Below are positions 53,266-55,140 of a stretch of 64,000 nt of DNA, one piece after another. The position numbers and the translations under genes are program-made. The DNA is from Candidatus Mailhella excrementigallinarum. GTDB taxonomy: Bacteria > Desulfobacterota > Desulfovibrionia > Desulfovibrionales > Desulfovibrionaceae. A model generated the notes under the pieces. The model was not told where the DNA came from, did not search any database, and saw only the letters and a program-made list of their open reading frames with translations. The DNA lies in assembly GCA_944324075.1 (NCBI GenBank), contig CALUUZ010000009.1:1-64000 (forward strand), read 5' to 3'. Position 1 is the first letter of the stretch. Every line of letters begins with the position of its first letter.

Positions 53266-55140
53266 TCAGGCATGCTTATCGGATATGCCGTGTTCGCGCA
53301 TTTTGCGGAAAAGCGTGATCCTGGTGATGCCGAGCGCGTCCGCCGTCCGCTGCCTGTTCCAGCAGTTTTTTTGCAGGGCCTGCGCGATGGCGTTTTTTTC
53401 GGCTCGGGCAAGCTGTTCTTTCAATGGGACGTCTTCCCGTTCCTCCGGCATACCCGGAGTCCGCGTCTCCTCTCTCCCCTTCACCGGCACGGGATGAAAA
53501 AATTCAAGGCTGCGTTCGGCGGCATAGCGCATGATGACATTTTCCAGTTCTCTGATATTGCCCGGCCAGCTATGGGTGTACAGTTTTTTCAGGACTGTTG
53601 AGGACGGCGTGAAGGATATTCCGTTGCGCCGGAGAATTGCGTTGACAAGGAGCGGAATGTCATCCTTGCGCATGCGCAGCGGCGGCAGCGTGACATCCAG
53701 AACATTGACGCGGTAGAACAGATCCTCACGGAATGTTCCTGCCCGCACCATGTCTTCAAGATTGCGGTTGGTCGCCACAATGAGACGGAAATTGCTGAGA
53801 AGCTCCCGCGTGGAACCTACCGGGGTATAGGTTTTGTCGCTGAGGGCCTGGAGCAGTTTCGACTGGGCGCGCGGGGAAAGTTCCGCAATTTCGTCAAGAA
53901 AGAGCGTGCCCTGATCCGCCTTGGTCAGAAAGCCTTCAGCGTCACGGATTGCGCCTGTGAACGCTCCCTTGACATGCCCGAAAAAACTGCTCTCGAAGAG
54001 TTCGTCCGGAATGGCGCCGCAGTTGACATAGGTGAAGGGACCGTCCGCCTTGGAACTGAGCTGGTGAACCAGACGCGCGGCCAGGCTCTTGCCTGTGCCG
54101 GTTTCTCCATAGATGGAAACGGTAACCAGAGAGAGGGCGGCTCTGAGCAGGTTTTCCATGGTTTGCCCCATGACGGCGGAACGCCCTGCGAACATGGTGA
54201 GCAGTTCCTGATAGGACTGATGCCGCTCCTTTCTCTGGGCTGCAAAGACCCCTTCAAGCAGGAAATCCCGTTCCTTTTCCGCCGTGATGTCCCGGACCAG
54301 AGAGAAATTGGCCTTTTTTCCGTTGACCCGGATGATGTTGGGCCATGACTGCGTCCAGACCTTTTTTCCCTCCCGCGTGCGCTGAGGCCAGTGCAGAACA
54401 GTATGGGCGCTGCTCGCTTCGGTCAGCGAGTTGATGGTTCTTTCATGATCACGGGCGGCGGCATCTTCCATGCTCAGGAAGACGGATGTGCCCATGAGTT
54501 CCTCCTGAAGTGTGGAGGAGGAGTATATTTCGTCAATGAGCGGACGGGACAGATAGAGGTTGAGTTCGTTCTGATTGACGCCGAACCATGCGTCCCCGTT
54601 GCGGTCGAGACAGTTCAGGAGCCGGAAGAGATCCAGAGAGGGGGAGCGGACAAAGTCGTAACTCGGAAAACCGGCCCATGCGTAATAGGTGAAGGTTCTC
54701 CCTTCTTTTTCGTCAGTTCCGCGGCCGTAAAGCAGAAGCGTGGGAAAGGCTTCCGGCTTTTCTGGCGGAGGGGCAAGGCAGACGGCGCATTCGCTGTCCG
54801 TCCGGCTGAGGAGCATCGCTTCGGGAAGGCACAGCCGGGAGCTCTCTCTCTCTCTCTCTCTCTCTCTCTCTCTCTCTCTCGGACGGGCGGAAAGCCGATC
54901 CATGATGTCCCGCGCTCTTGGATCGAGGAATACCCTCATTCCTTCCTCGCGGCCGATAACTTCTTTTTCCGCAATACCCACAGCGTCTTCGGCGTGGCGG
55001 TTCCACCAGACAACGGTCCGATCCTCGCTCATGACGCAGGCAGGGATGAAGCAGAGGGCAAAATGAGCCTGGAGAAAGCGGCCGAGAGCAGGGTCCTGCA
55101 GCTTCCGGGAGAACGGCATCATCGTGGATTCTTGCATCAT
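53266..55140 (-). CDS. Sigma-54-dependent activator with in-frame CT dinucleotide tract
   Basis: 624 aa. Residues about 20-85 are PAS-like (FIPACVMSEDRTVVWWNRHA). Residues 88-99 are six Arg-Glu pairs encoded by the (CT)19.5 tract at 54842-54880. A second PAS-like region (about 255-305) ends in SLVRDITAEKERD. The AAA+ domain (about 320-555) has Walker A GETGTGKS, the sigma-54 loop HVKGAFTGAIRD, Walker B GTLFLDEIAELS; the C-terminus is a Fis-type helix-turn-helix (RQRTADALGITRITLFRKMR). The start (ATG 55140 or 55137) has no strong Shine-Dalgarno. Convergent with ASST2-MFS, its likely targets. Slippage in the tract would truncate the protein before its AAA+ domain. Confidence 0.88.
   Translation of the reverse strand: MMQESTMMPFSRKLQDPALGRFLQAHFALCFIPACVMSEDRTVVWWNRHAEDAVGIAEKEVIGREEGMRVFLDPRARDIMDRLSARPRERERERERERESSRLCLPEAMLLSRTDSECAVCLAPPPEKPEAFPTLLLYGRGTDEKEGRTFTYYAWAGFPSYDFVRSPSLDLFRLLNCLDRNGDAWFGVNQNELNLYLSRPLIDEIYSSSTLQEELMGTSVFLSMEDAAARDHERTINSLTEASSAHTVLHWPQRTREGKKVWTQSWPNIIRVNGKKANFSLVRDITAEKERDFLLEGVFAAQRKERHQSYQELLTMFAGRSAVMGQTMENLLRAALSLVTVSIYGETGTGKSLAARLVHQLSSKADGPFTYVNCGAIPDELFESSFFGHVKGAFTGAIRDAEGFLTKADQGTLFLDEIAELSPRAQSKLLQALSDKTYTPVGSTRELLSNFRLIVATNRNLEDMVRAGTFREDLFYRVNVLDVTLPPLRMRKDDIPLLVNAILRRNGISFTPSSTVLKKLYTHSWPGNIRELENVIMRYAAERSLEFFHPVPVKGREETRTPGMPEEREDVPLKEQLARAEKNAIAQALQKNCWNRQRTADALGITRITLFRKMREHGISDKHA
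54842..54880. repeat. Dinucleotide microsatellite (CT)19.5 inside the activator gene
   Basis: 39 uninterrupted bases of alternating C and T on the plus strand, read as alternating AGA/GAG codons on the minus strand. Length is not a multiple of three per repeat unit, so gain or loss of one unit shifts the frame. It lies at residues 88-99 of 624. Confidence 0.95.

Follow-up and report, generated by a model that had tools for sequence, protein, structure and literature searches.

Most descriptions of repeat-based phase variation concern surface genes and DNA methylases. The adhesin gene sabA of Helicobacter pylori, a species from a phylum other than that of the bacterium studied here, carries a CT repeat in its coding part, and the regulator FlgR of Campylobacter jejuni is a member of the NtrC family. 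Sections of the H. pylori literature attribute changes in repeat tracts, including those of a promoter region, to slipped-strand mispairing (PMC2715451, PMC4081817). For C. jejuni, the relevant passages describe sigma-54 flagellar regulation that is switched via mutation of poly-A/T tracts in the coding sequences of flgR and flgS, and a review among them gives these tracts fewer than 7 repeats and calls the mutations irreversible (PMC8355987, PMC5021803). In the mod gene of the MmyCI system of Mycoplasma mycoides, an excerpt reports AG repeats, of which 12 units gave the off state and 10 gave an in-frame gene with activity (PMC3498834). Genome-wide sets of repeat-switched genes, termed phasomes, are likewise outlined in parts of the literature on Neisseria, Campylobacter, and Haemophilus (PMC7371114, PMC2651432, PMC8355987). 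A literature search gave no report of simple-sequence-repeat phase variation or slipped-strand mispairing in Desulfovibrio, and none of dinucleotide-repeat phase variation in gut commensals; the portions available of the phase-variation literature on Desulfovibrionaceae and Bilophila contained no report of switched sigma-54 activators in the family.

The present locus lies in a 64,000-nt stretch of Candidatus Mailhella excrementigallinarum DNA (hereafter the window), in which the gene P0001 for a sigma-54 enhancer-binding protein (EBP) contains a long CT tract. It would resemble C. jejuni FlgR as a sigma-54 regulator with a coding sequence subject to repeat-length mutation, but differs in having a 39-nt dinucleotide tract, in being a PAS-type EBP, and in sharing its genome with two more tract-bearing EBPs; FlgR governs flagella, whereas P0001 probably governs the arylsulfotransferase gene ASST2. 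The MmyCI mod gene similarly has a dinucleotide tract inside its coding sequence, though it encodes a DNA methyltransferase, not a sigma-54 activator, in an unrelated host. Predicted tract slippage is the likeness to the repeat-switched genes of H. pylori, of which sabA differs in being an adhesin gene. Unlike the phasomes cited above, the tracts found here are CT/GA, plus one 33-nt AC tract, and the genes that carry them include several sigma-54 activators. Dinucleotide contingency loci are hence known as a kind, of which several tract-bearing EBPs in one genome, one of them paired with an arylsulfotransferase, is a variant.

The CT tract and its activator gene

The CT run at positions 54842–54880 comprises 39 nt, or 19.5 units, and is uninterrupted (100% matches). 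It reads as (GA)n on the minus strand, where it is located in frame within the open frame of P0001 (53266–55140, minus strand; 625 aa) and encodes an Arg-Glu repeat. The start of P0001 was putatively assigned to the first of several ATGs. The initial annotation had correctly reported a pure in-frame run of this length in an EBP gene and placed it at residues 88–99; the first residue was right, but the repeat extends to residue 101 (87–100 when counted from the ATG at 55140). The tract overlaps the end of a PAS-like region (54838–55044, minus strand; Pfam PAS, residues 34–102), which is followed by an AAA+ sigma-54 interaction domain (53692–54189, minus strand; residues 319–484; PF00158, Sigma54_activat, 3.2e-59) and a Fis-type helix-turn-helix, HTH (53293–53412, minus strand; residues 578–617; PF02954, HTH_8, 6.6e-11). 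An AAA+ domain with a C-terminal Fis-type HTH is the architecture of sigma-54 EBPs of the NtrC family. Against the NCBIfam FlgR model NF049963, P0001 scored 179.2 bits over residues 304–541 only, which is below the cut-off of 750.

The gene is ON in the present sequence, as the initial annotation had read it, with the open frame continuing across the tract and a relative in another genome of the genus (L012 in G006) aligning on both sides. The two alternative frames downstream of the tract run into stops after 74 and 42 codons, so that a one-unit change would remove the AAA+ and HTH parts; the earlier prediction that gain or loss of one unit ends translation before the AAA+ domain was thereby borne out. 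A pure tract of 39 nt, a unit length that is not a multiple of three, a position within the coding frame, and early truncation upon a frame shift are properties by which contingency loci are recognized, and all were found for P0001.

The matches listed for the genome collection, in which the genome's own or near records may be absent, comprised 80 loci (34–50% identity), and the analysis covered one genome per species. No CT/GA run of at least 4 units was detected at six loci with EBP relatives (L012, L013, L014, L018, L241, and L242), of which L014 and L242 are one gene and L013 and L018 are partial matches. A search of viral contigs gave no match, and that of plasmid records gave two short arylsulfotransferase matches.

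ASST2 as the likely target

P0001 is convergent with ASST2 (50081–51496, plus strand), a gene of the arylsulfotransferase family, behind which lies an MFS transporter gene (51509–52921, plus strand) of uncertain start that is perhaps co-transcribed with it. A −24/−12 promoter-like site, TGGCACGGAGCTTGCT, was located at 49996–50011 (plus strand), approximately 70 bp before the ASST2 start. It scored 20.5 of 21 with the −24/−12 consensus and weights that we assumed for site scoring and was the top match in the window; sites of this score occurred at 0.125 per window in simulated sequence (40 simulations). A looser scan gave 21 sites, compared with a shuffle mean of 21.85, which is no enrichment, so that only the top score and the placement of TGGCACGGAGCTTGCT carry weight. 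In G006, the P0001 relative (50% identity, residues 9–619) is also convergent with an arylsulfotransferase gene (69%), and TGGCATGGCCTTTGCT, one of two sites scoring 19.5 in the 19-kb stretch, is situated approximately 100 bp before the latter. This EBP is the one clear ortholog and is tract-free. In G006, no MFS gene adjoins the arylsulfotransferase gene, and the best match to the MFS gene of the window (31% over 165 residues) is elsewhere in the stretch. A search for a shared upstream operator returned only 9–10-mer matches, which were given no weight, and no clear operator.

Since the EBP–arylsulfotransferase pair is kept in this relative and a −24/−12 site is present upstream in both genomes, the target of P0001 is likely ASST2, perhaps in combination with the MFS gene, and P0001 would bind there. 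The link to the adjacent ASST2 drawn by the initial annotation was hence strengthened. That annotation had also proposed a "master" activator of a whole sulfur-related regulon, for which we found no support: the evidence points to one local target operon, not a regulon. A second arylsulfotransferase gene of the window (9601–10911; 44% identical) has no −24/−12 site scoring at least 18 just upstream. The second-best −24/−12 site of the window, TGGCACAATGCTTGCT (18677–18692, minus strand), was observed 55 bp before the open frame 17000–18622, whose putative product is a multi-pass protein of 540 aa that looks BCCT-like by eye.

CT/GA tracts in the genome, genus, and family

The source genome (G000; 3.71 Mb, 51 contigs) was found to contain 15 CT/GA runs of at least 14 nt at 14 places (3 and 12 in two scans), with lengths from 17 to 75 nt, which extends the initial annotation from a single tract to a set that includes two further EBP genes. 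By chance, 0.03 runs of 14 nt are expected in 3.71 Mb when the window is modeled as a first-order Markov chain and 0.011 with a third-order model, and the first-order expectation for a 39-nt run falls to about 1e-17; in shuffles, CT runs of 12 nt with at most one mismatch have an expectation of 0.16 per window. The genome-wide scan covered CT/GA units, and one AC tract of 33 nt was also found. The latter immediately follows a poly-C run and lies close to where an open frame ends (G000:C2:86196-86227; L283:2696-2728).

Besides P0001, the tract-bearing EBPs of this genome are L065 (contig C26), with a 42-nt tract in frame between PAS and AAA+, and L056 (contig C1), with a 37-nt tract between the AAA+ lid and an HTH that lies in a different frame. 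No ortholog of L065 was named in the genus, because none of the other matches listed starts before residue 144 or exceeds 54% identity. EBPs thus hold 3 of the 14 tract sites and look over-represented, with a rough P of 0.002–0.008 that was computed from 65 candidate EBP stretches, which is not a gene count. A further tract is in frame in L057, whose FkbM match is weak and scores at the Pfam cut-off. Others were found directly after the ATG of a radical SAM/SPASM gene, within the apparent signal peptide of a TRAP DctP gene, toward the end of a LysR regulator gene, in two glycosyltransferase genes, of which one is split between frames and the other has a C-terminal tract, and in a TPR gene cut off by a contig end. 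The remainder are beside thiE, intergenic, close to the end of a contig, or next to an integrase. Rfam gave no match in a stretch of 801 bases at the L063 tract. Contig C17 of G000 aligned with G006:C44 over 22.6 kb or more (82% identity), and this alignment ended at a CT tract (L063:5014, L197:4990).

Among the 19 genomes of the genus, runs of at least 9 units were present in 7 over both end-patterns (3/19 and 6/19 singly), with counts by end-pattern of 11 + 3 in G000, 17 + 5 in G016, 0 + 4 in G008, 2 + 0 in G006, 0 + 2 in both G012 and G007, and 0 + 1 in G018. We collected 48 tracts from the seven genomes, 15 in G000 (at least 14 nt) and 33 in the six others (at least 18 nt), and judged those for which both sides were recognizable as one gene, by family match or by eye. 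This gave 19 tracts, 12 in frame (the window tract, L057, L059, L061, L065, L158b, L162, L171, L183, L190, L192, and L182) and 7 out of frame, one of these only probably; the other 29, including L060 and L188, were C-terminal, 5′-noncoding, at contig ends, at integrase junctions, or unassigned. The out-of-frame genes were the EBP L056 and the GT2 gene L066 in G000; the R-M helicase L186, with the ResIII profile matched at 2–80 before the tract and 102–163 after it, and the GT8 gene L180 in G012; the acyltransferase L156 and the FkbM gene L158a in G016; and, probably, the Eco57I methylase L164. This indicates that, across these tract genes, lengths change not only in threes. Two neighboring FkbM-type genes on one contig, with 20 identical bases before the tract, have 36 nt (out of frame) versus 38 nt (in frame). 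The occurrence of sister tract genes both in and out of frame, a further mark of contingency loci, was hence observed in the genus.

At the family level, one of the two end-patterns was matched in 34 of 288 genomes and 9 of 44 genera, and six genera totaling 93 genomes had no match (g5, 36; g8, 17; g45, 15; g44, 10; g36, 8; g10, 7). One genome in these six genera, G022, gave a single match to the reversed pattern, which also detects real tracts. Beyond the genus, 40 stretches from six genomes were sampled, Pfam was run on ten pieces, and eight tracts were read by frame. Two EBP regions with tracts were found in G068 of genus g7: L254, whose EBP is probably out of frame and whose upstream frame had no Pfam match, and L243, in which the tracts precede the open frame bearing the EBP domain.

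Several tracts were observed at contig ends or beside integrase genes. Contigs of G000 end in or just after CT/GA tracts (C28:38801-38876, C23:43590-43685), so that tracts may break assemblies of this family, and caution is advised with its short-read drafts, which may break or mis-join genes there. At five loci (L068, L173, L175, L278, and L253) in four genomes and three genera, a GA tract lies approximately 92 bp from the start of a gene for a phage-type tyrosine recombinase (L068:2623-3999, with a PF00589 match in L068); no tract adjoins the more distant integrase of L290. In three blastn comparisons, conservation ended at the tract and the far side was different each time. The GA tract may be an attachment site at these loci, or the drafts may have been mis-joined there. 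In L068, L173, L175, and L278, the open frame to the left of the tract was rejected as a tract gene, being the antisense of the integrase gene. Integrase relatives comprised two distant ones in viral contigs (26% and 30%) and 604 phage records, all below 60% identity. Contig G068:C17 contains two GA tracts in the same orientation approximately 29.6 kb apart (L252:1119-1145, L253:2019-2064), which bracket relaxase-like frames, capsule-like frames resembling window positions 58249–61463, and an integrase, all named by eye, as well as a third GA tract (L295:7641-7691).

A proposed phase-variable switch

We consider that the P0001 tract is probably a translational phase-variation switch of an EBP that likely activates ASST2, within a genome-wide (CT/GA)n set. 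Slipped-strand mispairing during replication would add or remove CT units, and any change other than a multiple of three units would shift the frame where the PAS region ends, leading to a stop before the AAA+ domain and an EBP that is off. With the tract in frame, the EBP would be on, and the convergent ASST2, perhaps with the MFS gene, would be activated from the promoter at 49996–50011. Slippage at this tract, regulation of ASST2, and any phenotype are here predicted from sequence. As the initial annotation had suggested, phase variation is a likely role, because similar tracts recur in the genome and genus and some of the genes are out of frame. Counting against the switch, the sole clear ortholog is tract-free, and an orthologous tract site shared by G008 and G018 has 35 nt in both. 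Gene content does not support the idea that the tracts arose through loss of mismatch repair: of the 19 genomes in the genus, 15 have a mutS and 18 a mutL above the model cut-off, each including G000 and G016. The G000 mutS is cut by a contig end (87-bp overlap at 97.7%). With both genes present, slippage may proceed more slowly than it does in repair-poor species, which also counts against the switch.

The tracts might instead reflect neutral microsatellite expansion, in which replication in this lineage favors CT/GA growth and unselected tracts persist in tolerant places. The C-terminal or non-coding position of several tracts (L063, L058, and L062) is consistent with this, as are their patchy occurrence among genomes and the tract-free G006 ortholog. 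We regard it as rather unlikely, given that many of the nameable tract genes are in classic contingency classes (glycan, R-M, surface, and regulators), that several tracts are located just after the start codon or in an apparent signal peptide (L059, L061, L190, L158, and L171), and that EBPs appear over-represented. Another explanation assumes reinitiation at a downstream ATG, which would yield a PAS-less EBP, so that the tract would toggle between signal-controlled and signal-independent activation. EBPs without a sensor domain can be constitutive, and in-frame Met codons are present between the tract and the AAA+ domain of P0001; this mechanism cannot, however, apply to L056, with its tract located after the AAA+ domain, and we consider it quite improbable. 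Least probable, and very much so, is an assembly artefact, with an incorrect tract length or a faulty join across the tract. The two tract loci at or near contig ends (C28, C23) and the draft G016 junctions that fuse unrelated gene halves (L173, L174, and L175) would fit such an error, but the G006 relative is continuous across the equivalent region, and tracts are also found in G018, a single contig, and in G095, where those listed are all on one 3.7-Mb contig.

The translational switch proposed for P0001 would be one member of a genome-wide (CT/GA)n set that includes two other EBPs. We tentatively suggest, as a reading that falls somewhat short of even chances, that the sigma-54 network is stochastically rewired: several EBPs, each with its own (GA)n tract, might leave each cell with a randomly drawn set of active regulons, and that of ASST2 would be one of these. 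The basis for this is the three tract-bearing EBPs in G000 and the two EBP regions found outside the genus, in G068. If true, dinucleotide control of several EBPs in one genome would constitute a bet-hedging layer on gene regulation, and the expression of ASST2 would vary cell by cell.
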